Positions 8,065 through 24,375 of a DNA stretch of 64,000 nucleotides are shown here, one piece after another. How positions within the stretch are numbered: the stretch's first letter is position 1; each line of letters opens with the position of its first letter. A program made the position numbers and the translations under genes. The notes beneath the pieces were generated by a model. The model saw only the letters and a list, made by a program, of their open reading frames with translations. It ran no database searches and was not told where the DNA came from. The stretch is from Cupriavidus neocaledonicus (lineage in GTDB: Bacteria; Pseudomonadota; Gammaproteobacteria; Burkholderiales; Burkholderiaceae). Where the stretch lies: the NCBI RefSeq assembly GCF_000372525.1, contig NZ_AQUR01000105.1, positions 225,435 to 289,434 of the forward strand. Direction: 5' to 3'.

Positions 8065-9153
8065 TTGAGCCTCAGCACTGAGCAGGTTACCGAAGCCCTG
8101 CGCACCGTCATCGACCCCAATACGGGCAAGGACCTGGTCTCCACCCGCTCGGCCCGCAACATCCGCGTCGATGGCGGCGAGGTATCGCTGGAGGTCGAAC
8201 TCGGCTATCCCGCCCGGAGCCAGTTCGATCCGATCCGCAAGCTGGTGGTGGCCGCGGTCCGGCAGCTGCAGGGCGTGACCAATGTCAGCGTGGCCGTGAA
8301 CATGAAGATCGTCGCCCACGCGGTGCAGCGCGGCGTCAAGCTGCTGCCGGGAGTGAAGAACGTGATCGCGGTGGCCTCGGGCAAGGGCGGCGTGGGCAAG
8401 TCGACCACGGCCGTGAACCTGGCGCTGGCGCTGGCCGCCGAAGGCGCGCGCGTGGGCATGCTCGATGCCGACATCTACGGCCCCAGCCTGCCGATGATGC
8501 TGGGCATCGACGGCCGCCCCGAATCCGCCGACGGCCAGACCATGGAGCCGCTGGAGGGCCACGGCCTGCAGGCCAACTCGATCGGCTTCCTGATCGAGCA
8601 GGACAACCCCATGGTATGGCGCGGCCCGATGGTCACGTCGGCGCTGGAGCAGCTGCTGCGCCAGACCAACTGGCGCGACCTCGATTACCTGATCGTCGAC
8701 ATGCCGCCGGGCACCGGCGACGTGCAACTGACGCTGTCGCAGAAGGTGCCGGTCACCGGCGCGGTGATCGTGACCACGCCGCAGGACATCGCGCTGCTGG
8801 ATGCCAAGAAGGGCCTGAAGATGTTCGAGAAGGTGGGCATCCCGATCCTCGGCATCGTCGAGAACATGGCGGTCTATTGCTGCCCGAACTGCGGCCATGT
8901 CGAGCATATCTTCGGCCATGGCGGCGGCGAGAAGATGTGCGCCGACTACGGCGTCGACCTGCTCGGCAGCCTGCCGCTGAACCTGAGCATCCGCGAGCAG
9001 GCCGATTCCGGCCGCCCGACCGTGGTCGCCGAGCCCGACAGCCCGGTGGCGGAGATGTACCGCGCCATCGCGCGCAAGGTGGCGATCAAGGTCGCCGACA
9101 AGGCGCGCGACATGACCAGCAAGTTCCCCAGCATCGTGGTGCAGAACACCTGA
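8065..9153 (+). CDS. apbC: Iron–sulfur cluster carrier protein ApbC/Mrp
   Basis: A P-loop ATPase of the Mrp/NBP35 family that carries Fe-S clusters to apoproteins in the cytoplasm. The 362-residue product has an N-terminal MIP18/DUF59 domain (about residues 1–90), the deviant Walker A SGKGGVGKST at residues 105–114, the DADIYGPS switch region and the cluster-binding pair in YCCPNC near residue 272. It starts with TTG at 8065 with AAGCGGAG upstream. It lies 16 bases before the DUF3305 gene at the head of the formate dehydrogenase locus, so co-transcription is likely; supplying Fe-S clusters to the many-cluster proteins downstream is a reasonable inference. Confidence 0.93.
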   Translation: MSLSTEQVTEALRTVIDPNTGKDLVSTRSARNIRVDGGEVSLEVELGYPARSQFDPIRKLVVAAVRQLQGVTNVSVAVNMKIVAHAVQRGVKLLPGVKNVIAVASGKGGVGKSTTAVNLALALAAEGARVGMLDADIYGPSLPMMLGIDGRPESADGQTMEPLEGHGLQANSIGFLIEQDNPMVWRGPMVTSALEQLLRQTNWRDLDYLIVDMPPGTGDVQLTLSQKVPVTGAVIVTTPQDIALLDAKKGLKMFEKVGIPILGIVENMAVYCCPNCGHVEHIFGHGGGEKMCADYGVDLLGSLPLNLSIREQADSGRPTVVAEPDSPVAEMYRAIARKVAIKVADKARDMTSKFPSIVVQNT

Positions 9154-9169: not shown

Positions 9170-9703
9170 ATGGACATGCAGCCCACCGCCAACCTGCCGC
9201 CGCCCGGTGCCCGCCCCGCCGTCACCATGGCCGTGGTGATGCGCAAGGTCGCGCTGGCCAGCCGCTGGCAGCCCTGGAAGTGGCAGCTCGACGCGGTCCT
9301 GCCGGACCTGGGCGAGTTCGGCACGCAGCCGGTGTGCCTGGAGCATGATGCCCATGGCGCGCGCTGGCTGTATCCCGGCTACGAGGTGGAGCTGTTCCGC
9401 GACCAGGGCGAGGGCTACTACCTGAACCTGACCTCGGTCACGCCATGCTGGTTCGTGCTGTGGCGCATGCCCGAGGATGAGGGCGACGCAGACCGGGCGC
9501 ATCCGGTGCCGGTCACCGTATCGCTGTCGTACAACGAGGCCGGCCGCTGGCTGGATGCCGGCGAGACCGTCGAGAACGTGCCGCTGGCGCCGGAGCAGCG
9601 CGACTGGCTGCAGGCCTACGTCAATGAACATTACCGGCCCGAGCCCAAGCAGCGGCGCCGGCCCGAATCGTTCAAGGCGCCGGACCAGCGCGCACGCTAC
9701 TGA
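9170..9703 (+). CDS. DUF3305-type protein of the formate dehydrogenase locus
   Basis: Unknown function. The 177-residue product resembles the DUF3305 family by its features: an early AVVMRKVALASRWQPWKWQ segment, a GxxWLYPGYEVELFRDQGEGYYLNL core and a long C-terminal run of Arg/Pro. It has no signal peptide and no membrane segment, so it is probably cytoplasmic. From general knowledge, DUF3305 and DUF3306 genes are found next to formate dehydrogenase genes in beta- and alphaproteobacteria, and the order here fits that. It may help mature or regulate the enzyme, which is inference. The family name is from recall, not from a search. Confidence 0.75.
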   Translation: MDMQPTANLPPPGARPAVTMAVVMRKVALASRWQPWKWQLDAVLPDLGEFGTQPVCLEHDAHGARWLYPGYEVELFRDQGEGYYLNLTSVTPCWFVLWRMPEDEGDADRAHPVPVTVSLSYNEAGRWLDAGETVENVPLAPEQRDWLQAYVNEHYRPEPKQRRRPESFKAPDQRARY

Positions 9704-9734: not shown

Positions 9735-10388
9735 ATGAGCGAATCGTCCTTCCTGTCGCGCTGGTCGCGCCGCAAGGCCGCGGTGCGCGAGGGCGTGGCC
9801 GTTCCCGCCGAACCGCCGCAGCCGCCGCAGCCGCGGCAGCCCGAGAGCGGGCCTGTCCCTGCGACCGTCGAAGCCGCTGCCGAGGCGCCGCGGGATCCGC
9901 CGCCGACGCTGGCCGATGTCGCGGCATTGCGGCCCGGTGACGAGATCGCCCGCTTCGTCGCGCGCGGCGTGGACGAATCGGTCAAGCGCGCCGCGCTGAA
10001 GACACTGTTCGCCGATCCGCACTTCAATGTGATGGACGGGCTCGATATCTACATCGACGATTACAGCAAGCCGGACCCGATCCCGGCCGAGATCCTGCGC
10101 CAGTTGCGCCAGGCGCAGACGCTGGGCCTGTTCGAGCCCACCGACGAGGAACGCGCCGCGGCCGCAGCCGCTGCCCGGGTATCGGAGCCGGAACAGGTAC
10201 CGCCAGCAGCGCAAACGGACGCGCAGCAGGAACCGCATCAGGCGGGCGCAGCAACAGGCGAAGGCGCCGACGCGCCGCCGGTGCAGGCCGATGCACCGGC
10301 CGGCGCCGAAACGCCGCCGCCGCACGCCAGTCAAAGCGAACAACAGGGCCAGCAAGACCCGCACGCAAGACCCGATAAACGCGCGTAG
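9735..10388 (+). CDS. DUF3306-type protein of the formate dehydrogenase locus
   Basis: Unknown function. The 217-residue product starts FLSRWSRRKAAV, has a Pro-rich linker, then a conserved core at about residues 55–135 (ADVAALRPGDEIARFVARGVDE, then KTLFADPHFNVMDGLDIYIDDY), and ends in a low-complexity Gln/Ala/Pro/Glu tail of about 70 residues. This layout is what is known for DUF3306 proteins. No export signal is seen. It follows the DUF3305 gene by 31 bases and precedes the multi-cluster ferredoxin gene by 101 bases. The acidic core and disordered tail suggest a binding role rather than an enzyme. Confidence 0.75.
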   Translation: MSESSFLSRWSRRKAAVREGVAVPAEPPQPPQPRQPESGPVPATVEAAAEAPRDPPPTLADVAALRPGDEIARFVARGVDESVKRAALKTLFADPHFNVMDGLDIYIDDYSKPDPIPAEILRQLRQAQTLGLFEPTDEERAAAAAAARVSEPEQVPPAAQTDAQQEPHQAGAATGEGADAPPVQADAPAGAETPPPHASQSEQQGQQDPHARPDKRA

Positions 10389-10489: not shown

Positions 10490-12655
10490 ATGCCGACGCT
10501 GATCTGCAATTGCAACGACACCATGCCGCTGGACGGGGCGGCATTGTCAGACGCAACCCCCGCCCCCGGCCAGGGGCCGCTCAAGGTCCATCGACTGCTG
10601 TGCCGGCGCGAAATCGGTGACTTCACCGCCGCGCTGGACGGCACCGAGGACGTGATCGTCGCCTGCACCCAGGAGCGCCAGCTGTTTACCGAGGTTGCCG
10701 CGCAGGCCGCGCGGGGCCGCGATGGCCAACCGGTGGTGACCGCGCCGGTGCGCTTCGTCAATATCCGCGAGACCGGCGGCTGGTCGCAGGGCGCCCGGCG
10801 CGATCCCAGGACCGCCAACGCCAAGATCGCCGCGCTGCTGGCGGTGGCCGCGCTGCCCGAACCCGAGCCGGTGCCGGTGGTGGACTACCGCAGCGACGGC
10901 GCGGTGCTGGTGCTGGGGCCGGCCGCGCGCGCGCTGCCGTGGGCCGAGCGGCTGGCCGCGATGCAGCTCGAAGTCACGGTGCTGCTGACCGGCGGCGACG
11001 CGCGCGACGGCACCGCGGCGCAACCCGCGGCGCGCGCATATCCGGTCCACAGCGGCCGGCTGGCGGCGCTGACGGGCTGGCTCGGCGCCTTCGAGGCGAG
11101 CTGGGAGACCGGCGCCGGCCGCAGCAATCCGATCGACCTGGACCTGTGCACGCGCTGCAATGCCTGCATCGAAGCCTGTCCGGAAGGCGCGATCGATTTC
11201 AGCTACCAGATCGACCTGTCGCGCTGCCGCGCGCACCGCGATTGCGTGCGCGCCTGCGGCGCCGCCGCGGCGATCGACTTCGACCGTCCGCAGGGCACCG
11301 GCGCGGGCCGCTTCGACCTGGTCTTCGACCTGTGCGACACGCCCGCCTTCACCATGCACCAGCCGCCGCAGGGCTACCTGCATGCCGGTGCCGACCCGGC
11401 CCGGCAGCAGGCCCAGGCGCTGGCGCTGGCCGGGCTGGTGGGCGAGTTCGAGAAGCCCAGGTTCTTCCGCTACAAGGAAAGCCTGTGCGCGCACGGCCGC
11501 AACCAGACCACCGGCTGCACCGCCTGCATCGACATCTGCTCGACCCAGGCCATCGTCTCGCGCTGGCATGACGGCAAGGGCCGCATCGAGGTCACGCCCA
11601 ACCTGTGCATGGGCTGCGGCGCGTGCACCACGGTCTGCCCCAGCGGCGCCATCAGCTACGGTTACCCCGGGCCGGAGACCACCGGCGCGCGGCTGCGCAC
11701 GCTGCTGTCCGCCTACCGGCAGGCCGGCGCGCGCGATCCGATGGTGCTGCTGCACGGCGAGGAATCCGGCACGCCCGCGCTGCTGGCGCTGGGCCGCGCC
11801 GCCCGCGGCGGCAAGGCGCGCGGCGTGCCCGCGCAGGTCATGCCGCTGTCGCTGTTCCATCCGGCCTCGGTGGGGCTGGAGCTGTGGCTGGCGGCGCTGT
11901 GCTGGGGCGCGAGCCGCGTCGCCGTGCTGCTGACCGGCGACGAGGCGCCGCAATACCGCACCGCGCTGCTTGAGCAGATGGCGGTCGGGCGCGCGCTGCT
12001 GTCGGGCCTGGGCTATGACGGCGAGGCGCTGTCGCTGCTCGAGGCCGCCGACACGGAAGCGCTCGATGCCGGCCTGGCGGCGCTGCGCCCGGCCGGTAAC
12101 GCATTGCCGCCCGCGGCCTTCGGCCCGGTCGCGGCCAAGCGCGAGATGCTCGACTTCGCGCTCGACCACCTGGTGCGCCATGCGCCGTCGCCGGCGCAGA
12201 GCGTGCCGCTGCCGGCGGGCGCGCCGATCGGCGCCATCGCCGTCGATACCGGCAAGTGCACCTTGTGCCTGGCGTGCGTGGGCGCGTGCCCGTCCCAGGC
12301 GCTGCGCGACAACCCCGAGCGCCCCGTGCTCAGCTTTATCGAGCGCAACTGCGTGCAGTGCGGGCTGTGCCAGAAGACCTGTCCGGAAGACGCCGTAACC
12401 CTGGTGCCGCGCCTGCTGGCCGGCGACGCGGCCCGGCGCCCGGTCACGCTCAACGAGGCCCAGCCGTTCCATTGCGTGCGCTGCGCCAAGCCGTTCGGCA
12501 CGGCGCAGATGGTCGAGTCGATGCTGGTGCGCCTGGCCGGCCATCCCGCCTTTGCCGGCGCGGCCGCGGAGCGCCTCAGGATGTGCCCGGACTGCCGCGT
12601 GGTGGATATGATGGAACGCGACCCTGGCGCCGTCAGCGGCGCCACCCTGCGCTGA
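10490..12655 (+). CDS. Large multi-cluster 4Fe-4S ferredoxin-like protein of the formate dehydrogenase locus
   Basis: A 721-residue soluble protein with no signal peptide. Cysteine motifs, in order: CTRCNACIEACPEG (near 222), a CRAHRDCVRAC group (near 245), CTACIDIC (near 345), CMGCGACTTVCPSG (near 375), CTLCLACVGACPSQ (near 590), CVQCGLCQKTCPED (near 622) and a C-terminal CVRC...CPDC set (near 665–705). About six [4Fe-4S] sites are therefore likely, plus a possible zinc ribbon. Between them, residues 400–540 have an MvhD-like look. Homologues are usually annotated only as '4Fe-4S binding protein' beside formate dehydrogenases. It may carry electrons between cytoplasmic partners and the enzyme, or take part in maturation; neither is shown here. 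The ATG at 10490 has no clear ribosome binding site, and TACAAT at 10409–10414 could be a -10 element. Confidence 0.85.
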   Translation: MPTLICNCNDTMPLDGAALSDATPAPGQGPLKVHRLLCRREIGDFTAALDGTEDVIVACTQERQLFTEVAAQAARGRDGQPVVTAPVRFVNIRETGGWSQGARRDPRTANAKIAALLAVAALPEPEPVPVVDYRSDGAVLVLGPAARALPWAERLAAMQLEVTVLLTGGDARDGTAAQPAARAYPVHSGRLAALTGWLGAFEASWETGAGRSNPIDLDLCTRCNACIEACPEGAIDFSYQIDLSRCRAHRDCVRACGAAAAIDFDRPQGTGAGRFDLVFDLCDTPAFTMHQPPQGYLHAGADPARQQAQALALAGLVGEFEKPRFFRYKESLCAHGRNQTTGCTACIDICSTQAIVSRWHDGKGRIEVTPNLCMGCGACTTVCPSGAISYGYPGPETTGARLRTLLSAYRQAGARDPMVLLHGEESGTPALLALGRAARGGKARGVPAQVMPLSLFHPASVGLELWLAALCWGASRVAVLLTGDEAPQYRTALLEQMAVGRALLSGLGYDGEALSLLEAADTEALDAGLAALRPAGNALPPAAFGPVAAKREMLDFALDHLVRHAPSPAQSVPLPAGAPIGAIAVDTGKCTLCLACVGACPSQALRDNPERPVLSFIERNCVQCGLCQKTCPEDAVTLVPRLLAGDAARRPVTLNEAQPFHCVRCAKPFGTAQMVESMLVRLAGHPAFAGAAAERLRMCPDCRVVDMMERDPGAVSGATLR

Positions 12656-12692: not shown

Positions 12693-13331
12693 ATGACAGA
12701 TTTCCAGCCGATCCAGCTCACCGCCGCGCCGCCCGCCGACCCTGCGGACAGCGAAGACACCGCCCGCGCCGACCTGTACGGCCTGCTGGCCACGCTGTTC
12801 TACCGCGCCCCGGACGCGGCCTTGCTGCATCACATCGCGGCCAACCGCGCCGTGGGCGAAGACGCGCAGACCGTACTGGGCAAGGCGTGGAATGCGTTGT
12901 GCGACGCAGCATCCGAGACCACCGCGGCCGAGGCCGAAGAGGAATACCGGCAACTGTTCGTCGGCGTGGGCCGCCAGGACGTCTTCCTGTACGCCTCTTT
13001 CTATCTGACCGGCTTTCTCAACGAGCGCCCGCTGGTGGCGCTGCGCGAAGACCTGGCCCGCTATGGCCTGGAGCGCCACGAAGGCGTCAGCGAGACCGAG
13101 GACCACATCGCCACGCTGTGCGAGGTGATGCGCTTCCTGGTGGCCGGGGACGACCTGTCGGTGTCCAACCTGGGCGAGCAGCAGCGCTTCTATGCAAAGC
13201 ATCTGCAGCCCTGGATCGAGCCCTTGTGCGAGGCGGTGGTGGCGCACCCGCAGGCGCGCTTCTATCGCAGCGTGGCCGGACTGCTGGGCACCTTCGCCGG
13301 CGTCGAGGCGGTGGCGCTGGAGATGACCTGA
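12693..13331 (+). CDS. TorD/DmsD-family molecular chaperone
   Basis: A 212-residue all-helical chaperone of the TorD family, which binds the Tat signal of molybdoenzymes and holds them back from export until the cofactor is inserted. Visible features: an ADLYGLLATLFYRAPD start of the helical bundle, the EEYRQLFVGVG segment, and the family hallmark VSETEDHIATLCEVMRFLV (about residues 128–147) with its E-x-x-D-H-I core. Its place between the ferredoxin gene and the Tat-targeted subunits suggests that it serves the formate dehydrogenase catalytic subunit. Confidence 0.9.
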   Translation: MTDFQPIQLTAAPPADPADSEDTARADLYGLLATLFYRAPDAALLHHIAANRAVGEDAQTVLGKAWNALCDAASETTAAEAEEEYRQLFVGVGRQDVFLYASFYLTGFLNERPLVALREDLARYGLERHEGVSETEDHIATLCEVMRFLVAGDDLSVSNLGEQQRFYAKHLQPWIEPLCEAVVAHPQARFYRSVAGLLGTFAGVEAVALEMT

Positions 13332-13498: not shown

Positions 13499-13714
13499 AT
13501 GAGAGAGAAGCCAACCAGGGTCGCGCGCCGCACGTTTCTAGCGGGCGCCGGAGTTGTAGCCGCCGCCACCGGTGCGGCAGCGCTGAGCACGCGCACACCC
13601 GCCATGCCGGGCCAGGCTGCAGCCCTGCCGGAACCCACCGATCCTCCATCGGACAGCAAGGGTTACCGGGTCTCGGACCACATCCGCAAGTATTACCGGA
13701 CCACGCTGGTGTAA
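13499..13714 (+). CDS. Small Tat-signal protein of formate dehydrogenase loci
   Basis: A 71-residue protein with a twin-arginine signal (VARRTFLAGAG, Arg10–Arg11), a hydrophobic Ala-rich segment and a short mature tail ending DHIRKYYRTTLV. It matches the small 'formate dehydrogenase region TAT target' proteins found just upstream of fdh catalytic subunits. Its role is unknown; it could be a small structural subunit or help the folded catalytic subunit through the Tat pore. It lies 73 bases before the catalytic subunit gene. Confidence 0.85.
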   Translation: MREKPTRVARRTFLAGAGVVAAATGAAALSTRTPAMPGQAAALPEPTDPPSDSKGYRVSDHIRKYYRTTLV

Positions 13715-13787: not shown

Positions 13788-16700
13788 ATGATCTTGACCC
13801 GCAAACGCGCGGCGCAGGGCGCATCCGCCCGCCTCGCTGATGGCCTCGGCAATCGGCCCGAATCCGCCGGCGCAGGCTCCGGCCGGCTCTCCCAACGACT
13901 TGCGGCCAGCCTGGCCGGCGCCATGCCGACCATGGACCGCCGCAGCTTCCTCAAGCGCTCCGGCATCGGCGTCGGCGCCGGCCTCGCGGCCTCGCAGCTG
14001 ACGCTGCTGCGCAAGGCCGATGCCGCCGACGACAAGAAGGCCGCCGGCGACGGCAAGACCGGCATCGTGGTCCGGCGCACCGTGTGCGGCCACTGCTCGG
14101 TCGGCTGCGCGGTCGACGCGGTGGTGCAGAACGGCGTGTGGATCCGCCAGGAGCCGGTGTTCGATTCGCCCCTGAACATGGGCGCGCACTGTGCCAAGGG
14201 CGCGGCGCTGCGCGAGCACGGCCACGGCGAATACCGGCTCAAGTACCCGATGAAGCTGGTCAACGGCAAGTACCAGCGCATCGGCTGGAACCAGGCGCTC
14301 GACGAGATCACCGCGAAGATGAAGGAGATCCGCCAGCAGAGCGGCCCGGACTCGATGTTCTTCGTCGGCTCTTCCAAGCACAGCAACGAGCAGTCTTACC
14401 TGCTGCGCAAGTGGGTGTCCTTCTTCGGCACCAACAACACCGACCACCAGGCGCGCATCTGCCACTCCACCACCGTGGCGGGCGTGGCCAACACCTGGGG
14501 CTACGGTGCGATGACCAACTCGTACAACGATATGCAGAACGCCAAGGCGGCGCTGTATATCGGCTCCAACGCGGCCGAGGCGCACCCGGTGTCGATGCTG
14601 CACCTGTTGCATGCCAAGGAGAACGGCTGCAAGGTGATCGTGGTCGATCCGCGCTTCACGCGCACCGCGGCCAAGGCGCACCACTATGTGCGGATCCGCT
14701 CGGGCACCGATATCGCCTTCCTGTTCGGCGTGCTGTACCACATCTTCAAGAACGGCTGGGAAGACCAGAAGTACCTGAACGACCGTGTCTACGGCATGGA
14801 CAAGATCAAGGAAGAGGTGCTGGCCAAGTGGACCCCGGACAAGGTGGAGGAAGTCACCGGCGTGCCCGAGGCGCAGGTCTACCTGGTGGCCGAGACCATG
14901 GCCAAGAACCGCCCCAGCACGCTGGTGTGGTGCATGGGCCAGACCCAGCACACTATTGGCAATGCGATCGTGCGCGCCTCGTGCATCGTACAGCTGGCGC
15001 TGGGCAACATCGGCGTGTCGGGCGGCGGCGCCAACATCTTCCGCGGCCACGATAACGTGCAGGGTGCCACCGACGTGGGCCCCAATCCCGATTCGCTGCC
15101 GGGCTACTACGGCCTGGCCACCGGCGCGTGGAAGCACTACGCGGCGGTCTGGGGCGTGGACTACGAATGGATCAAGAAGCAGTTCGTGTCGCAGACGATG
15201 ATGGAGAAGTCCGGCACCACGGTGTCGCGCTGGATCGATATCGTCACCGAGAAGAACGAGCTGATCGACCAGGACAACAACGTGCGCGGCGTGTTCTTCT
15301 GGGGCCATGCCCCGAACTCGCAGACGCGCGGGCTGGAAATGAAGAAGGCGCTCGACAAGCTCGACCTGCTGGTGGTGGTGGACCCGTACCCGTCGGCGAC
15401 CGCGGCCATGGCCAACATGCCGCCGGCCGAGGGCGACAAGGTCAATCCCAACCGCGCGGTGTACCTGCTGCCCGCGGCCACGCAGTTCGAGACCTCGGGC
15501 TCGTGCACGGCGTCGAACCGCTCGCTGCAATGGCGCGAGAAGGTGATCGAGCCCCTGTTCGAATCGATGCCCGACCACACCATCATGCAGGCGTTCGCCG
15601 ACAAGCTCGGCTTCGGCAAGGAGCTGTCGAAGAACTTCAAGATGATCGAGGTCAAGCGGGCCGGCCGGACCTGGATGGAGCCCGAGCCGGAATCGATCCT
15701 GCGCGAGATCAACGCCAGCAACTGGACCATTGGCTACACCGGCCAGTCGCCCGAACGCCTGAAGTCGCACATGCGCAATATGCAGATGTTCGACGTCAAG
15801 ACGCTGCGCTGCAAGTCGGGCAAGGACCCGGTCACCGGCTACGACCTGACCGGCGACTACTTCGGGCTGCCGTGGCCATGCTATGGCACGCCGGAGCTGA
15901 AGCATCCGGGCTCGCCCAACCTGTACGACACCACCAAGCATGTGATGGACGGCGGCGGCAACTTCCGCGCCAATTTTGGCGTCGAGCGCGACGGCGTCAA
16001 CCTGCTGGCCGAGGACGGCTCGCACTCGCTGGGCGCGGAGATCACCACCGGCTATCCCGAGTTCGACCACGTGCTGCTGAAGAAGCTGGGCTGGTGGGAC
16101 GACCTGACCGATGCCGAGAAGGCCAAGGCCGAAGGCAAGAACTGGAAGACCGACCTGTCCGGCGGCATCCAGCGCGTGGTGCTGAAGAACCACGGCTGCC
16201 ACCCGTTCGGCAATGCCAAGGCGCGCGCGGTGGTGTGGAACTTCCCGGACCCGATCCCGCAGCACCGCGAGCCGCTGTACTCCACGCGTCCCGACATGGT
16301 CGCGAAGTACCCGACCCACGACGACAAGATGGCGTTCTGGCGGCTGCCGACGCTGTACAAGTCGGTGCAGCAGCGCAATCTCGAGAACAAGGTGGCCGAG
16401 AAGTTCCCGATCATCCTGACTTCCGGGCGCCTGGTCGAGTACGAGGGCGGGGGCGAGGAAACCCGTTCCAACCCGTGGCTGGCGGAGCTGCAGCAGGAGA
16501 ACTTCGTCGAGATCAACCCGCGCGCCGCGTCCGACCGCGGCATCCGCAACGGCGACTACTGCTGGGTCAAGACCCCGACCGGCGCCACGCTGAAGGTGCG
16601 CGCGCTGGTGACCGAGCGGGTCGGGCCCGATACCGCCTTCATCCCGTTCCATTTCTCGGGCTGGTGGCAGGGCAAGGACCTCAAGGACTACTACCCCGAG

Positions 16701-16820
16701 GGGGCGATGCCGGTGGTGCGTGGCGAAGCGGTCAATACCGCGACCACGTATGGCTATGACTCGGTGACGATGATGCAGGAAACCAAGACCACCATTTGCC
16801 AGATCGAGCGGTTTGCCTAA
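13788..16820 (+). CDS. fdhA: Formate dehydrogenase, catalytic (alpha) subunit, Cys-type
   Basis: Oxidises formate to CO2 at a Mo- or W-bis-pterin site, in the periplasm. The 1010-residue product has a Tat signal (RR at residues 51–52, DRRSFLKRSG) after an unusually long 45–50 residue leader. It then has the 4Fe-4S ligands Cys100, Cys103, Cys107 and Cys135, followed by the molybdopterin oxidoreductase core and the C-terminal dinucleotide-binding domain with TSGRLVEYEGGG. The active-site residue is Cys225 in DHQARICHSTT, encoded by TGC, where FdnG has selenocysteine, so no selenocysteine insertion is needed. The start at 13788 has GAGGTGAG upstream; an ATG at 13923 would give a more normal Tat signal but lacks a ribosome binding site. 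It is followed by the Fe-S subunit 15 bases later. Confidence 0.95.
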   Translation: MILTRKRAAQGASARLADGLGNRPESAGAGSGRLSQRLAASLAGAMPTMDRRSFLKRSGIGVGAGLAASQLTLLRKADAADDKKAAGDGKTGIVVRRTVCGHCSVGCAVDAVVQNGVWIRQEPVFDSPLNMGAHCAKGAALREHGHGEYRLKYPMKLVNGKYQRIGWNQALDEITAKMKEIRQQSGPDSMFFVGSSKHSNEQSYLLRKWVSFFGTNNTDHQARICHSTTVAGVANTWGYGAMTNSYNDMQNAKAALYIGSNAAEAHPVSMLHLLHAKENGCKVIVVDPRFTRTAAKAHHYVRIRSGTDIAFLFGVLYHIFKNGWEDQKYLNDRVYGMDKIKEEVLAKWTPDKVEEVTGVPEAQVYLVAETMAKNRPSTLVWCMGQTQHTIGNAIVRASCIVQLALGNIGVSGGGANIFRGHDNVQGATDVGPNPDSLPGYYGLATGAWKHYAAVWGVDYEWIKKQFVSQTMMEKSGTTVSRWIDIVTEKNELIDQDNNVRGVFFWGHAPNSQTRGLEMKKALDKLDLLVVVDPYPSATAAMANMPPAEGDKVNPNRAVYLLPAATQFETSGSCTASNRSLQWREKVIEPLFESMPDHTIMQAFADKLGFGKELSKNFKMIEVKRAGRTWMEPEPESILREINASNWTIGYTGQSPERLKSHMRNMQMFDVKTLRCKSGKDPVTGYDLTGDYFGLPWPCYGTPELKHPGSPNLYDTTKHVMDGGGNFRANFGVERDGVNLLAEDGSHSLGAEITTGYPEFDHVLLKKLGWWDDLTDAEKAKAEGKNWKTDLSGGIQRVVLKNHGCHPFGNAKARAVVWNFPDPIPQHREPLYSTRPDMVAKYPTHDDKMAFWRLPTLYKSVQQRNLENKVAEKFPIILTSGRLVEYEGGGEETRSNPWLAELQQENFVEINPRAASDRGIRNGDYCWVKTPTGATLKVRALVTERVGPDTAFIPFHFSGWWQGKDLKDYYPEGAMPVVRGEAVNTATTYGYDSVTMMQETKTTICQIERFA

Positions 16821-16835
16821 GCGCAGAGGAACACC

Positions 16836-17546
16836 ATGGCACGCATGAAATTTATCTGTGACGCCGAGCGCTGCATCGAGTGCAACAGCTGCGTCACTGC
16901 CTGCAAGAACGAGCACGAGGTGCCCTGGGGAGTGAACCGGCGCCGCGTGGTCACGGTCAACGACGGCATGGTCGGCGCCGAGAAATCGATCTCGGTGGCC
17001 TGCATGCACTGCTCGGACGCGCCCTGCATGGCGGTCTGCCCGGTCGACTGCTTCTACCGCACCGAAGACGGCGTGGTGCTGCACGACAAGGACGTCTGCA
17101 TCGGCTGCGGCTACTGTTCGTACGCCTGTCCGTTTGGCGCGCCGCAGTTTCCTTCGACCGGCACCTTCGGCGTGCGCGGCAAGATGGACAAGTGCACCTT
17201 CTGCGCGGGCGGCCCGGAGAAGAACGGCTCGGAAGCCGAGTTCGAGAAGTACGGCCGCAACCGGCTCGCCGAAGGCAAGCTGCCGCTGTGCGCCGAAATG
17301 TGCTCGACCAAGGCGCTGCTGGGCGGCGATGGCGACGTGATTGCCGACATCCTGCGCAACCGCGTGATCAAGCGCGGCACCGGCGGCGACGTGTTCGGCT
17401 GGGGCACGGCCTATGGCAATGCCCAGGCCGGCGCGAAGCCCGCGCCACCGGCGCAGCAGGCCGCACCCGCGACCACGGCGCCCGCCGCGCCCGCCGCGCC
17501 GGCCGCGCCCGCAGCGACGGTACCTGCAGGAGGGAAAGCGTCATGA
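16836..17546 (+). CDS. fdhB: Formate dehydrogenase, Fe-S (beta) subunit
   Basis: Passes electrons from the catalytic subunit to the cytochrome b subunit. The 236-residue protein has four ferredoxin-type clusters: CIECNSCVTACKN (from Cys13), CMHCSDAPCMAVCPVD, CIGCGYCSYACPFG, and the CTFC...CAEMCSTKALL set. After residue about 190, where FdnH-type subunits have a membrane helix, it instead ends in a roughly 40-residue Ala/Pro repeat tail and has no hydrophobic anchor. It has no signal of its own and probably hitch-hikes with the alpha subunit through Tat. The stop overlaps the next ATG (ATGA). Confidence 0.93.
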   Translation: MARMKFICDAERCIECNSCVTACKNEHEVPWGVNRRRVVTVNDGMVGAEKSISVACMHCSDAPCMAVCPVDCFYRTEDGVVLHDKDVCIGCGYCSYACPFGAPQFPSTGTFGVRGKMDKCTFCAGGPEKNGSEAEFEKYGRNRLAEGKLPLCAEMCSTKALLGGDGDVIADILRNRVIKRGTGGDVFGWGTAYGNAQAGAKPAPPAQQAAPATTAPAAPAAPAAPAATVPAGGKAS

Positions 17547-17779
17547 ATCGCATCCGCGTCGTTGCACTGGTGTCGCTGTGCGGCGTGCTGCTGGCCGCGT
17601 GCGGCGAGAAGCCGCAGACCATCGGCCCGTCGCACCGCAAGGCCGACGCCCAGGCGTTCCAAGGGGCCCCGGACGATCCGTTCGTGGCCAAGGGCTGGAC
17701 CGCGGGCGACCGCAACAGCTGGAACAACCAGATCCGCCAGCGCAACCAGTTGCAGAACGAGTACAACCGGGTGCAATGA
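17543..17779 (+). CDS. Small lipoprotein of the formate dehydrogenase locus
   Basis: A 78-residue protein with a classical lipoprotein signal ending LLAACGE (Cys near residue 20), followed by a short polar tail with KGWTAGDRNSWNNQIRQRNQLQNEYNRVQ-type sequence. Its ATG overlaps the fdhB stop, so translation is coupled. Function is unknown. Membrane attachment next to the periplasmic enzyme suggests an accessory or anchoring subunit, which is inference. Confidence 0.8.
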   Translation: MNRIRVVALVSLCGVLLAACGEKPQTIGPSHRKADAQAFQGAPDDPFVAKGWTAGDRNSWNNQIRQRNQLQNEYNRVQ

Positions 17780-17828: not shown

Positions 17829-19055
17829 ATGACGCCGTCGCACAATCGATGCCGCGCCGCAGGCTGGCGCGGCTGGCGGGGTTGGCTGACTGCCGGCGCG
17901 CTGGCGCTGGCCGCGGCCGGCAATGCCGTGGCACAGGCCCCGGCACCCGCGCCCGGGCCGTCGACCGGACCGGCGACCGCATCGGCCGGCGCCGACGCCA
18001 ACAACCCGGCCACGCATCCGGCCCAGCCGCTGGCCGGCATTGCGTCCGAGAACATCTTCAACATCCCGCCGCGCGACATCGCCGCCGAGGCCAGGTCGCA
18101 GCAGCAGCGCAGCGTCACGCAGCCCGGCAACAACGCGCCGATGTGGCGCGAGGTCAATTCCGACCAGCGCCACTACAGCAGCCTGCCCGACAAGGAAGCC
18201 GGGGTGCTGATCCAGCGCACCGGCCAGTCGTGGCGGCTGTTCCGCAACGGCGTGATCACGGTCTGGGGCGGCTGGCTGCTGCTGATCGTGCCGGTGGCGA
18301 TCCTCGGCTTCTTCCTGTGGCGCGGCACCATCCCGCTGCGCACGCCCAGGACCGGCCGCATGATCGAGCGCTTTACCCCGCTCGAGCGCATCGTCCACTG
18401 GACCATGGCGATTTCCTTCGTGGTGCTGGCGGTGTCGGGCATCGTGATGCTGCTGGGCAAGCATTTCCTGCTGCCGCTGATGGGCCATATGCTGTTCGGC
18501 TGGCTCAGCTACATCCTGAAGAACCTGCACAACGTGGTGGGGCCGATCTTCACGCTGTCGGTGATCGTCGCCTTCGTGGTGTTCCTGCGCGACAACCTGC
18601 CCAGCCGCGACGACGTCCGCTGGGTCACCAGCCTCGGCGGGCTGGCCTCGGGCAGGCACGTGCCGAGCGGGCGCTTCAACGCCGGCGAGAAGATGTGGTT
18701 CTGGGTCGGCGTGTTCGTATTCGGTCTGGTGCTGTCGGCCTCGGGCTGGGTGCTCGACATGATCGTACCCGGCATGGACTACTACCGCGCCACCATGCAG
18801 ATCGCCAACGTGATCCACGCGATCTCGGCGGTGCTGATGATTGCCATGGCGTGCGGCCATATCTATATGGGCACCATCGGCATGGAAGGCGCGTACCGCG
18901 CCATGCGCGATGGCTGGGTTGACGAGGCCTGGGCCAAGGAACACCACGAGCTCTGGTACGACGACATCAAGTCAGGCAAGATCCCGGCCCAGCGTTCGGC
19001 CAGCCAGGATGCCGCCGCGGCCCGGCCGGCGCGGCAGAGTCCCGGCGAAGCCTGA
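17829..19055 (+). CDS. fdhC: Formate dehydrogenase, cytochrome b (gamma) subunit
   Basis: A membrane cytochrome b that takes electrons from the Fe-S subunit to reduce quinone. The 408-residue product starts with a signal peptide (about residues 1–36) and a Pro/Ala-rich stretch of about 100 residues, probably periplasmic, then has a membrane helix (WGGWLLLIVPVAILGFFLW) and four more in the FdnI-like domain. Candidate haem histidines lie in ERIVHW, KNLHNVV, ANVIHAI and ACGHIYMG. It begins at 17829 with GAAGGAGGGG directly upstream. FdnI itself is about 217 residues, so the N-terminal extension is a clear difference; this longer form is known in beta- and other proteobacteria. Confidence 0.92.
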   Translation: MTPSHNRCRAAGWRGWRGWLTAGALALAAAGNAVAQAPAPAPGPSTGPATASAGADANNPATHPAQPLAGIASENIFNIPPRDIAAEARSQQQRSVTQPGNNAPMWREVNSDQRHYSSLPDKEAGVLIQRTGQSWRLFRNGVITVWGGWLLLIVPVAILGFFLWRGTIPLRTPRTGRMIERFTPLERIVHWTMAISFVVLAVSGIVMLLGKHFLLPLMGHMLFGWLSYILKNLHNVVGPIFTLSVIVAFVVFLRDNLPSRDDVRWVTSLGGLASGRHVPSGRFNAGEKMWFWVGVFVFGLVLSASGWVLDMIVPGMDYYRATMQIANVIHAISAVLMIAMACGHIYMGTIGMEGAYRAMRDGWVDEAWAKEHHELWYDDIKSGKIPAQRSASQDAAAARPARQSPGEA

Positions 19056-19102: not shown

Positions 19103-19462
19103 ATGACACGCATCCCGACGCTGATCGCCGTAGCCGCCGGTGCCGCCTGCGCGGCCTTCGCCCCGGGCGCGCTGGCCAAGCTGCCCGCGCCGACCGAGGC
19201 CCAGCAGGCCAGGGCCGCCGAGACCAGGGCACGCGCCGCCTGGTCCGACAAGGTCGCGGCGTACCAGCTGTGCCGTGCCCAGGACAAGATCGCCGCGCAT
19301 TACCTGGCCGACCGCAAGGCGCACGGGCAGCCGCCGCGCGAGCCGGTGCAGACGGCCGCCTGCGCCGACCCGGGACCATTTGTGGCCCCGGTTCCTGCCA
19401 TCGCCAGCACCGCCGGTGCACCCGCGGCAGGCGCGGTACAATCGCCCGCAAAGGCGCCGTAA
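19103..19462 (+). CDS. Small exported protein of the formate dehydrogenase locus
   Basis: A 119-residue protein with a Sec-type signal peptide (cleavage probably after GALA-K near residue 25). The mature part is Ala-rich and helical (PTEAQQARAAETRARAAWSDKVAAYQLCRAQDK), with two cysteines (LCRAQ and AACADPG) that could pair, and a disordered tail. Function is unknown. It lies between fdhC and fdhD on the same strand. Confidence 0.75.
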   Translation: MTRIPTLIAVAAGAACAAFAPGALAKLPAPTEAQQARAAETRARAAWSDKVAAYQLCRAQDKIAAHYLADRKAHGQPPREPVQTAACADPGPFVAPVPAIASTAGAPAAGAVQSPAKAP

Positions 19463-19518: not shown

Positions 19519-20349
19519 ATGACCTTGCGTCCCGAGCTTACCCAGGCAGCCGTTCCCCTGATCGAAGAAGTTGAAGTCGTCGACGAGCAAGGGCGCGTGC
19601 GCGCGGCCTACCTGCCGGGCGAGCGGCCGCTGACGGTCTATCTCGACAAGCGCGAGCTGGTCACGCTGATGACGCTGGGCGGCGCGCCCGAGCACCTGGT
19701 GCTGGGCTACCTGCGCAACCAGCGCCTGGTGGAATCGATCGAGGACATTGCCGCGGTGCAGGTCGACTGGGAAACCGAATCCGCCGCGGTGACCACCCGC
19801 ACCGGTGTCGACCGCATCGAGGAGCGCACCGCGCGCCGCGTGGTGACCACCGGCTGCGGCCAGGGCACCGTGTTCGGCTCGCTGCTGGACGAGGTCGACA
19901 GCATCCGCCTGCCGGTTGGCGCCATGCTCGACCAGGACACCCTGTACGGCATCATCAACACCATCCGGCTGCAGCAGTCGGTGTACAAGCAGGCCGGTTC
20001 GGTGCATGGCTGCGCGCTGTTCCAGGGCACCGAACTGCTGATGTTCGTCGAGGACGTCGGCCGCCACAATGCCGTCGACGCGATTGCCGGGCGCATGTGG
20101 CTCGAAGGCATGACTGGCGGCGACAAGATCTTCTACACCACCGGGCGCCTCACTTCCGAAATGGTGATCAAGGGCGCGCAGATGGGCATCCCGTTCCTGC
20201 TGTCGCGCTCCGGCGTGACGCAGATGGGCTACCAGATGGCCAGGCGCGTCAACCTGACGCTGTTCGCGCGCTGCACCGGCAAGCACTTCCTGCTCTATAC
20301 CGGCCGCGAGCGCTTCCGCCACCGCCAGCCCGAAGATGTAGTGGTGTAG
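19519..20349 (+). CDS. fdhD: Formate dehydrogenase accessory sulfurtransferase FdhD
   Basis: Transfers sulfur from a cysteine desulfurase (IscS) to the molybdenum cofactor, which is essential for formate dehydrogenase activity. The 276-residue length fits the family (E. coli 277). Conserved features: RPLTVYLDKRELVTLMTLG near the start, the catalytic-loop TTGCGQGTVFG (one Cys), VEDVGRHNAVDAIAG, and TTGRLTSEMVIKGAQMGIPFLLSRS. E. coli FdhD has a C-x-x-C pair in the loop; here only the first Cys is kept. An upstream ATG at 19477 is also in frame and neither start has a strong ribosome binding site; 19519 was chosen by length. Confidence 0.92.
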   Translation: MTLRPELTQAAVPLIEEVEVVDEQGRVRAAYLPGERPLTVYLDKRELVTLMTLGGAPEHLVLGYLRNQRLVESIEDIAAVQVDWETESAAVTTRTGVDRIEERTARRVVTTGCGQGTVFGSLLDEVDSIRLPVGAMLDQDTLYGIINTIRLQQSVYKQAGSVHGCALFQGTELLMFVEDVGRHNAVDAIAGRMWLEGMTGGDKIFYTTGRLTSEMVIKGAQMGIPFLLSRSGVTQMGYQMARRVNLTLFARCTGKHFLLYTGRERFRHRQPEDVVV

Positions 20350-23458: not shown

Positions 23459-23484
23459 GGGCCCCGCCTTGGCGGGGCCCTTTC
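23459..23484 (+). terminator. Rho-independent terminator of the decarboxylase gene
   Basis: Stem GGGCCCCGCC/GGCGGGGCCC (10 pairs, very tight loop) followed by TTTC and a TTT. It lies 30 bases after the decarboxylase stop and against the end of the reverse-strand toxin gene. Confidence 0.85.
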
Positions 23485-23909
23485 TATTTGTCCTGGCTGA
23501 ACGGATTCATCACCATCGTGCCGGTGCCGCGGAAGTCCGCGACATTGCGCGTGACGATGGTAAGGCGGTGGATCAGCGCGGTCGCGGCGATGAACTTGTC
23601 CAGCGCGTGCTCGGGCCGCGCCGCCCGCAACTGGCCCCAGACCTGCGCGACCTCGGCATCGACCGGCAGCACCTGGCGGCCGAAGTCCTCCAGCACATGG
23701 GCCAGCCAGCGCTCCAGCAGCGCTGCCTGCACCGCGTCGCCGCGATGGCGGATCAGTGCCACGCCGCGCTGGAGTTCACCCACGGTCAGCGCCGACAGGT
23801 AGAGCGCGGCCCCATCGCGCGCGGCCTGCCGGAAGAAGGCACGGACGCCGGGGTTGGCGCGCTCCCGCTTGCGGGTCTCGCTGATGACGTTGGTATCAAT
23901 CAAATACAC
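23484..23909 (-). CDS. PIN-domain ribonuclease toxin (VapC/FitB type)
   Basis: A probable RNase toxin of 141 residues. It begins VYLIDTNVISETRKRE, with the first acidic residue of the PIN active site (Asp in LIDTNV), then Glu in TVGELQRGV, an Asp-rich C-terminal part (PEHALDKFIAATALIHRLTIVTRNVADF) with the third and fourth acidic positions, and ends with a typical PIN strand. The start is GTG at 23909, which overlaps the antitoxin end by 14 bases, as in coupled pairs. The closest style is FitB/VapC of betaproteobacteria. Confidence 0.88.
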   Translation of the reverse strand: MYLIDTNVISETRKRERANPGVRAFFRQAARDGAALYLSALTVGELQRGVALIRHRGDAVQAALLERWLAHVLEDFGRQVLPVDAEVAQVWGQLRAARPEHALDKFIAATALIHRLTIVTRNVADFRGTGTMVMNPFSQDK

Positions 23910-24132
23910 GCGGCGCCTCGCCCGTATCCTGGATGCGCTCGAAGTCGGCGTCCTGCCCGACGTCTGGCATGGCCGCCAGCACCTCGGCAAAGCTGAGCCG
24001 GGCCGTGCCGCCCAGCGCCTGCGCCAGGATGGCGCGGTGTTCGGCCTCGGCGCTGCGGCCATTGGCGACGGCCTGCTCGCGCAGGCGCTGCACCAGCGCT
24101 TCATCGACGCCCCGAACCAGTAGGGTTGCCAT
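23896..24132 (-). CDS. FitA/VapB-type antitoxin (ribbon-helix-helix)
   Basis: A 78-residue antitoxin. The N-terminal MATLLVRGVDEALVQRLREQAVANGRSAEAEHRAIL has the ribbon-helix-helix layout of FitA-like proteins (strand followed by two helices), and the C-terminal half (FAEVLAAMPDVGQDADF) is the likely toxin-binding tail. Start at 24132 has GAGGAG upstream. It precedes and overlaps the toxin gene, as usual. Confidence 0.88.
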   Translation of the reverse strand: MATLLVRGVDEALVQRLREQAVANGRSAEAEHRAILAQALGGTARLSFAEVLAAMPDVGQDADFERIQDTGEAPRVFD

Positions 24133-24160
24133 CTTGAACTCCTCACCGTTGGATGGCGTG

Positions 24161-24179
24161 ATGATAGCATTGTTATCAT
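24161..24179 (-). promoter_or_regulatory. Candidate operator of the toxin–antitoxin pair
   Basis: ATGATA (24161–24166) and TATCAT (24174–24179) form an AT-rich inverted repeat with a 7-base spacer, 29 bases before the antitoxin start, in an otherwise GC-rich setting. Such palindromes are bound by FitA/VapB-type antitoxins, and the TATCAT could serve as -10. Bases 24180–24375 hold no other feature I can support. Confidence 0.4.
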
Positions 24180-24375
24180 TACGGCGGTCACGTATCGATG
24201 GCAGGCAGTAGATCGGGGTCGCGGCGGAATGCCCCGTGCATTTGGTGCTCGGCATGTTGTTCTCCTGGGTCATGGGCTGGACGCAGGCACCAGTCTGGGC
24301 CGTGCCGGCCCGCTGGTCGATGAGCCGATTCGCAATTGGCCGGGTTGCCCCGCCGCGACGCCGATGCCTGGCGCA

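Follow-up and report, generated by a model that had tools for sequence, protein, structure and literature searches.

HdrA consists of an N-terminal cluster domain, a thioredoxin reductase (TrxR) domain, an inserted ferredoxin, and a C-terminal ferredoxin, to which type Ia adds a C-terminal MvhD (PMC12054007). HycF of the E. coli formate hydrogenlyase carries a CxxC-x34-CPxC quartet (C117, C120, C155, and C158) that binds a single metal, tentatively iron, close to where HycF meets FdhF, and this site was proposed to tune the affinity for FdhF via its redox state (PMC9474812). Among the accessory proteins of molybdoenzymes, NapF is a cytosolic four-cluster protein that has been detected in complex with NapA, and reconstituting the cluster of R. 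sphaeroides NapA in vitro depended on it; FdhE, a CxxC metal-binding protein, is required for the periplasmic formate dehydrogenases (FDHs) of E. coli. How the Fe-S cluster and the active molybdenum centre enter exported FDHs appears to be left open in the same review (PMC10609526). Here, a protein designated FER was analyzed, which is encoded in a 64,000-nucleotide stretch of the Cupriavidus neocaledonicus genome (contig NZ_AQUR01000105.1; this whole stretch is referred to as the window). Judged by sequence and structure model, FER is a fusion of HdrA-MvhD layout with a HycF end, lacking a recognisable flavin or [2Fe-2S] site. We propose, with a probability of roughly 0.55, that it is a cytosolic redox scaffold for maturing a molybdoenzyme exported via the twin-arginine translocation (Tat) pathway, here the FDH3-type FDH encoded next to it; this proposal draws on sequence, structure models, and analogy.

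FER is a real open reading frame (ORF) of 721 amino acids with an ATG start, and it is single-copy (one match in its own genome). Its closest named relative, from a Cupriavidus sp., is 87% identical in the best segment. The family is widespread in Proteobacteria and annotated in generic terms: 28 of the 30 plasmid records listed call the protein "4Fe-4S binding protein". Conservation was assessed over 116 rows, i.e., the window's FER, 72 named relatives (80 named loci less eight removed by a start-motif filter), and 43 other relatives. The AlphaFold2 model, calculated from 67 sequences (the window's and those of 66 of the 72 named relatives), had a predicted local distance difference test score (pLDDT) of 89.1 and a predicted template modelling score (pTM) of 0.87. 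The protein and its predicted parts are as follows:

10490..12655, + strand: FER, a polyferredoxin and HdrA/MvhD/HycF-like mosaic (ORF, AlphaFold2 model)
10490..10888, + strand: HdrA-type N-terminal Fe-S domain, residues 1-133, probable ligands C6, C8, C38, and C59 (profile search, cysteine conservation)
10889..11110, + strand: first half of a TrxR-like FAD domain, residues 134-207, with a degenerate GxGxxG loop (VIA structure comparison, motif count)
11126..11281, + strand: inserted ferredoxin (CxxCxxCxxxC plus CxxHxxCxxxC), residues 213-264, at the place of the inserted ferredoxin of HdrA (alignment; PMC12054007)
11285..11455, + strand: second half of the degenerate FAD domain, residues 266-322, NAD(P)H subdomain apparently missing (VIA)
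11462..11665, + strand: dicluster ferredoxin, equivalent to the C-terminal ferredoxin of HdrA, residues 325-392 (phmmer to HdrA 591-645, cysteine conservation)
11717..12124, + strand: MvhD-like domain without the [2Fe-2S] cysteines, residues 410-545 (VIA, FlpD matches)
12227..12607, + strand: HycF-like dicluster ferredoxin plus a putative CxxC-x33-CPxC single-metal site, residues 580-706 (VIA, cysteine quartet)

When the FER model was compared with the PDB by Foldseek, ranks 1-10 and 12 were taken by HdrA chains (best E-value 1.2e-14; chain names were assigned via sequence search, partly by entry and chain letter). VIA aligned HdrA (8rvy_A) with model residues 1-407 over 377 residues (Z 12.2, root mean square deviation [rmsd] 7.2). 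The profile of the N-terminal domain, made from 31 of 32 rows (L009 was omitted, its start being ambiguous), matched three HdrA chains in the PDB at E-values of 1.3e-4 to 1.5e-4, the next match following at 0.23, and HdrA was the NCBIfam family matched by most members (9/31, best E 5.7e-4). The N-terminal domain of the window's FER alone gave a weak NCBIfam match, to HdrA2 (E 0.33), and the Pfam search of the members yielded scattered weak matches and no HdrA-related family. A C-terminal ferredoxin of the HdrA type was present in all 116 relatives, and the order of the ferredoxins of HdrA is kept.

TrxR-type flavoproteins aligned with FER residues 136-321 at Z ∼10-11. The dinucleotide-binding loop, GxGxx[GA], was intact in eight relatives and lost in 108 of the 116 (the window reads GPAARA), and an acidic residue at position 167 was found in 15. 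As only about 125 FER residues aligned to TrxR chains of ∼300, FER apparently lacks the NAD(P)H subdomain. The stretch of HdrA that would provide the flavin-stabilising K409/E356 of the bifurcating enzyme appears largely missing, judging by the extent of the structure alignment.

For model residues 413-545, VIA ranked 7bkb_F, 5odh_D, 8rvu_F, and 5odc_D first to fourth (Z 15.1, 14.9, 14.6, and 14.6; 121-128 residues), which we take to be MvhD chains, the search outputs giving entry titles only. With 7bkb_F, 128 of 137 residues were aligned at an rmsd of 3.1. Foldseek assigned two of these presumably MvhD-type chains a probability of 0.97-0.98, yet E-values of 0.12-0.13. Of the 41 rows of the middle domain that were left after an identity filter, nine matched the Pfam family FlpD/MvhD (PF02662; best E 0.0082), more than matched any other family, and when ten members were tested singly, three matched FlpD, all below its cut-off (best 13.8 versus 22.3 bits). 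In the PDB profile search, 9sfi_K, a chain of MvhD type named delta subunit, came second (E 0.029); the top match, AmtR (E 0.0024), was rejected as an unrelated regulator. The insert of the window's FER alone had no Pfam match, nor was MvhD found with two relatives searched singly against PDB sequences, so that the case for MvhD rests on the family profile and the structure; the NCBIfam search of the middle domain did not return MvhD either. It was the structure comparison that decided the MvhD-like assignment, the sequence signal being weak. None of the FER columns 392-578 had a cysteine in more than five of the 116 rows.

The first-pass annotation of this DNA had pointed to an Hdr association, to an MvhD look of residues 400-540, and to electron bifurcation. 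The association is borne out and is stronger than stated because the N-terminal half of FER is HdrA-like. The MvhD look corresponds to a fold shared with chains that are presumably MvhD-type (VIA Z 14.6-15.1); at the profile level it was found with the family but not with the window's insert. The hint at electron bifurcation, in contrast, is not supported: the flavin loop is lost in most relatives, the NAD(P)H half appears absent, and the MvhD-like domain is without conserved cysteines, which are strong arguments against flavin-based bifurcation.

Six ferredoxin-type motifs were located in FER, at residues 220-230, 246-256, 333-350, 373-383, 590-600, and 621-631, followed by CxxC at 662/665 and again at 699/702; 206 residues lie between the two cysteine groups (C383 to C590). 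Sixteen cysteines (333, 343, 346, 350, 373, 379, 383, 590, 593, 596, 600, 621, 624, 627, 631, and 662) are invariant in all 116 rows; C665, C699, and C702 are cysteines in 115, one row being gapped. Position 376 is a cysteine in 95 relatives, and the other 21 read CxGxGxC, which is why the cluster may be [3Fe-4S] or otherwise liganded there. The N-terminal set of C6, C8, C38, and C59 is complete in all 94 relatives bearing the CxC motif, and 21 of the 116 have a gap at C6. The insert comprising residues 220-256 is present in 78/116 relatives, and its second motif (246-256; window positions 11225-11257) is CxxHxxCxxxC with the histidine at the second position in all 78, which suggests a 3Cys-1His cluster. 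Altogether, the predicted ligands would suffice for as many as seven Fe-S clusters plus a single-metal site. Thus, the six motifs, their two groups ∼200 residues apart, and the closing CxxC...CxxC, all read earlier from the sequence, were found as stated, and the cysteine count was right; the N-terminal set and the histidine in motif 246-256 had been overlooked. That ligands might be missing in relatives, named at the time as evidence to the contrary, applies to C376 in the 21 rows, whereas the other predicted core ligands are conserved. Taken with the profile searches of the insert, the outcome of the conditions set at the time is mixed.

In structural terms, the C-terminal end of FER resembles HycF. 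HycF (7z0t_F) aligned with residues 580-704 at Z 10.7 and 26% identity over 121 residues (VIA), and rank 11 of the Foldseek search with the FER model was HycF (2e-5). The spacing between CxxC and CPxC is 33 residues in the window and in 80 of the 116 relatives, and 34 in 19. Binding of one metal by this putative site is possible. Since the HycF quartet faces FdhF, the end of FER may serve as a docking surface for an FDH catalytic subunit; by analogy, the HycF-like module probably docks on FdhA/FdhB.

In the window, an operon-like order on the + strand runs from Mrp over DUF3305, DUF3306, FER, a TorD-type chaperone, a small Tat protein, FdhA, FdhB, a lipoprotein-like ORF, FdhC, and a small ORF to FdhD:

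8065..9153, + strand: Mrp/NUBPL-type Fe-S carrier ATPase (PF10609 plus PF01883; sole match in the genome at E 1e-40)
9170..9703, + strand: DUF3305 (PF11749, 2.6e-53)
9735..10388, + strand: DUF3306 (PF11748, 2.1e-35)
12693..13331, + strand: TorD/FdhT-type chaperone (PF02613, 3.6e-30; best NCBIfam match TorD, under its cut-off)
13499..13714, + strand: small Tat-signal protein, which we take to be FdhX-like (ORF; matched in 39/56 related loci)
13788..16820, + strand: FdhA, molybdopterin subunit with Tat signal, likely start near 13932 (family scans, sequence start)
16836..17546, + strand: FdhB, FDH3 beta (NF038355, 337.5 bits, cut-off 240)
17829..19055, + strand: FdhC, cytochrome b subunit (TIGR01583, 174.5 bits, cut-off 115.85)
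19519..20349, + strand: FdhD, accessory sulfurtransferase (PF02634, 2.7e-76)

The start of FdhA carries a twin-arginine signal (MDRRSFLKRSGIG). The N-terminus of FER, on the other hand, is not hydrophobic, and the highest 19-residue hydropathy of the protein, 1.57, starts at residue 463 (hydropathy being the only measure applied). By sequence, therefore, the target enzyme is exported and FER is not, in line with the first-pass annotation.

With a presence cut-off of E 1e-40, and counting the genome of the window, 17 of 143 genomes of a class sample and 35 of 249 genomes of a phylum sample carry FER. FDH3 beta exceeded its own cut-off in 34 of the same 249 genomes, and DUF3306 was likewise present in 34, both sets being the FER set minus one genome (G354). 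The three sets thus coincide in 34/35 genomes (Fisher p 3.7e-41, kinship ignored). FdhE (PF04216) overlapped FER in one of the 35 FER genomes versus 3.65 expected (n = 249, Fisher p 0.14); this scarcity is not significant and at best suggestive, and FER is not claimed here as a replacement for FdhE. Neighbourhoods were counted in those 56 of the 80 named loci that exceed 20 kb. Matches to DUF3305, DUF3306, FER, and TorD were present in all 56, to FdhA in 52 (including L092, L095, and L117, where the match lies upstream or on the other strand), to FdhB and FdhC in 50, to FdhX in 39, to FdhD in 35, and to Mrp in 33. In six loci (L077, L078, L092, L112, L117, and L120), the DUF3305-DUF3306-FER-TorD block was present with no FdhB within the 10-kb flanks; these four genes can thus occur separately from those for the enzyme subunits. 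Operons of the dmsD/torD-fdh kind have been reported to be accompanied by DUF3305, DUF3306, and genes of ferredoxin type (hybA, fer4) (PMC4464133). In S. oneidensis, the "iron-sulfur cluster-binding protein" SO_4506 is expressed together with FdhT, FdhA, and FdhB (PMC5826389), and we infer from gene order that it is the FER ortholog (PMC5826389, PMC2535785).

Twenty regions were picked by hand from among the 35 genomes with FER in the phylum sample, and 18 of them have FdhA and TorD matches near FER. In G156 the FDH3-beta gene lies ∼37 kb from FER; in G354 there is none over the cut-off. Among nine additional regions scanned, seven showed the FDH order, whereas L158 (genome G466) did not; L165 and L166 are among the at least seven with FDH genes. 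In G354 (region L126), a TorD-like gene is directly followed by that for a 511-amino acid FER relative, and the cluster further encodes an HmcC/DsrP-like membrane protein, an Fe-S subunit, and an ArrA/PhsA-like molybdo subunit with a Tat-like start. The FER relative of G466, 51% identical to that of G354, comes directly after a gene matching the TorD of the window and an ArrA-like/Fe-S pair. Neither region had a match to DUF3305 or DUF3306. These two contexts suggest that the constant partner of FER is the chaperone of an exported molybdoenzyme and not formate; FER seems to follow the chaperone, although there are just two such exceptions. The TorD-like chaperone directly upstream of the FER relative in G354 (L126:7846-8784) ends in a CxxC...CxxC tail similar to the motif that closes FER.

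Mrp adjoined FER outside the window-type order in seven of the 20 regions (L127, L128, L129, L131, L132, L133, and L143), and in L145 it occurred in the gene order of the window. Sixteen genomes were followed up, of which ten have at least two Mrp genes, in all ten cases with one ≤1.2 kb from the FER match; as the 16 were picked by hand and seven were already known to have Mrp beside FER, 10/16 is a biased rate. The duplication of this Fe-S carrier ATPase beside FER suggests that it may deliver clusters. In the window's genome, Mrp is the sole copy, its position upstream of FER therefore proves little, and the argument is carried by the other genomes. In G206, G273, and G309 (two of which are L127 and L128), the alignment of the FER-side Mrp with the query does not begin until about residue 91-99, and these copies may lack the N-terminal FeS-assembly domain.

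Some further features of the window were recorded. A 78-amino acid lipoprotein-like ORF (17543-17779) occupies the FdhB-FdhC gap and was matched in 48 of the 56 loci; one of 119 amino acids with a signal-like start (19103-19462; sub-threshold Pfam match only) lies between FdhC and FdhD and was matched in 37. The AlphaFold2 model of DUF3305 is confident (pLDDT 89.7, pTM 0.80); neither Foldseek nor VIA (best Z 2.0) gave a useful PDB match for it, and the profile search did not match anything, which does not prove a new fold. A MobA-DUF3305 fusion family of NCBIfam matches DUF3305 weakly (29.1 bits). Two small overlapping ORFs on the - strand (23484-24273) presumably resemble a toxin-antitoxin pair of the VapBC/FitAB type. 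The Rfam search of the window yielded no match.

In the redox-scaffold reading, FER would descend from an electron hub of the HdrA-MvhD type, from which it would have retained the domains with clusters but neither the flavin loop nor the [2Fe-2S] ligands of MvhD; in addition, it carries a HycF-like module. Before export, FER may bind the apo-enzyme on the TorD-type chaperone via this HycF-like end and supply electrons and/or Fe-S clusters, perhaps fed by Mrp in many genomes, whereby the Fe-S cluster and the molybdenum centre of the enzyme would be installed in an active state. Mature FdhAB would then exit through Tat while FER remains in the cytosol, as proposed for NapF and NapA. Ferredoxin-like proteins with an effect on an FDH have precedents in HydN and YsaA (PMC6004506). 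This reading has its direct basis in the architecture, the ligand conservation, the loss of the flavin loop, the operon partners, and the co-occurrence; binding of apo-FdhA/B, the transfer step, and its chemistry are what we infer. The more general version, that a methanogen-type HdrA-MvhD hub lost its flavin and was turned, in Proteobacteria, into a dedicated assembly machine which docks apo-FDH and other Tat-exported molybdoenzymes beside TorD, often with an Mrp of its own, and builds or reductively activates their metal centres, is put forward tentatively, the odds being somewhat against it.

Several points weigh against the scaffold. As many as seven clusters look like more than a helper of a chaperone needs; an electron wire would be just as good an explanation of them. 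Nor is a private Mrp required, since six of the 16 genomes, including that of the window, have a single Mrp. The TorD-like gene of G354 matches chaperone models weakly (24.3 of 152.3 bits). NapF itself, the functional analogue invoked for FER, matters little or can be lost altogether in some organisms (PMC10609526). Knockouts of the membrane-bound fdh genes of C. necator had no fitness effect on formate (PMC11540253); as the soluble FDH dominates there, these data are uninformative on FER. A functional test of FER was not found in the literature.

Of the alternatives, the one that survives best, although unlikely, is that FER is a redox- or iron-status checkpoint, in which cluster occupancy or the HycF-like site would gate release of the TorD-bound apo-enzyme, and neither clusters nor electrons would be donated. 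The regulatory role proposed for the HycF site, redox control of FdhF affinity (PMC9474812), fits such a gate, as do the closing cysteine quartet, conserved in 115-116 of 116 relatives, and the fact that FER travels with a TorD-type gene. A pure sensor, however, would hardly need the fifteen further invariant cysteines, and the presence of Mrp beside FER in a third of the scanned regions suggests delivery.

Somewhat less plausible is that FER still works as an Hdr/MvhD-type hub, passing electrons to or from an FDH within a cytosolic complex for electron transfer or bifurcation. The domain order is indeed that of type Ia HdrA (PMC12054007), and a formate dehydrogenase-heterodisulfide reductase complex, 7bkb, is among the structural matches. 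Against this stand the FAD loop, lost in 108/116 relatives, the acidic residue at 167, present in 15, the NAD(P)H subdomain, absent from the alignments, and the MvhD-like domain without conserved cysteines. Moreover, family scans of the operon proteins gave no HdrB/HdrC or hydrogenase match, and the enzyme bears a Tat signal. Least probable is a bound electron-transfer subunit at the cytosolic face of the mature FDH complex, which would account for the strict co-occurrence with FDH3 beta and has a parallel in the ferredoxin-like HydN and YsaA, which interact with FDH-H (PMC6004506), but is at odds with the Tat signal of FdhA and its lack in FER, with FdhA/B/C already giving an electron path to cytochrome b, and with FER also accompanying a non-FDH3 molybdoenzyme.

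If the scaffold reading is correct, a bioenergetic hub was reused as an assembly factor, and the generic annotation as "4Fe-4S binding protein" could be sharpened. The definable architecture, the strict co-occurrence, and the transferable partner TorD make part of the maturation question testable. HdrA, MvhD, and HycF parts are known, but their flavin-less fusion in molybdoenzyme operons has apparently not been described as far as our searches show: titles and abstracts retrieved from the literature, most subscription papers being outside coverage, contained no description of the FER architecture.

Compared with known systems, FER shares its domain order with type Ia HdrA (HdrA2, with C-terminal MvhD), from which it differs in the lack of an intact flavin loop, of the NAD(P)H subdomain, and of the MvhD cysteines, in the additional HycF-like C-terminus, and in its place in a proteobacterial FDH operon. 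With MvhD/FlpD (PF02662), the fold of residues 413-545 is common, assuming that the structural matches are MvhD chains, whereas the [2Fe-2S] ligands are absent and the match stays under the Pfam cut-off. NapF presumably contains neither HdrA nor MvhD parts. It resembles FER in being a cytosolic protein with several [4Fe-4S] clusters, four in its case, that belongs to a molybdoenzyme exported via Tat (PMC10609526). FER has the NapF-like traits of being rich in clusters, without export signal, and encoded with a Tat-exported Mo enzyme; the NCBIfam model for napF (TIGR00402) scored 49.5 bits on FER, below its cut-off of 102.2. FdhE resembles FER as an accessory protein with metal-binding CxxC motifs and had no match in the operon scans. 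Finally, the dicluster ferredoxin and CxxC-x33/34-CPxC quartet are common to FER and HycF/HyfH; in contrast to these hydrogenase subunits, the module in FER is a domain of a larger soluble protein.

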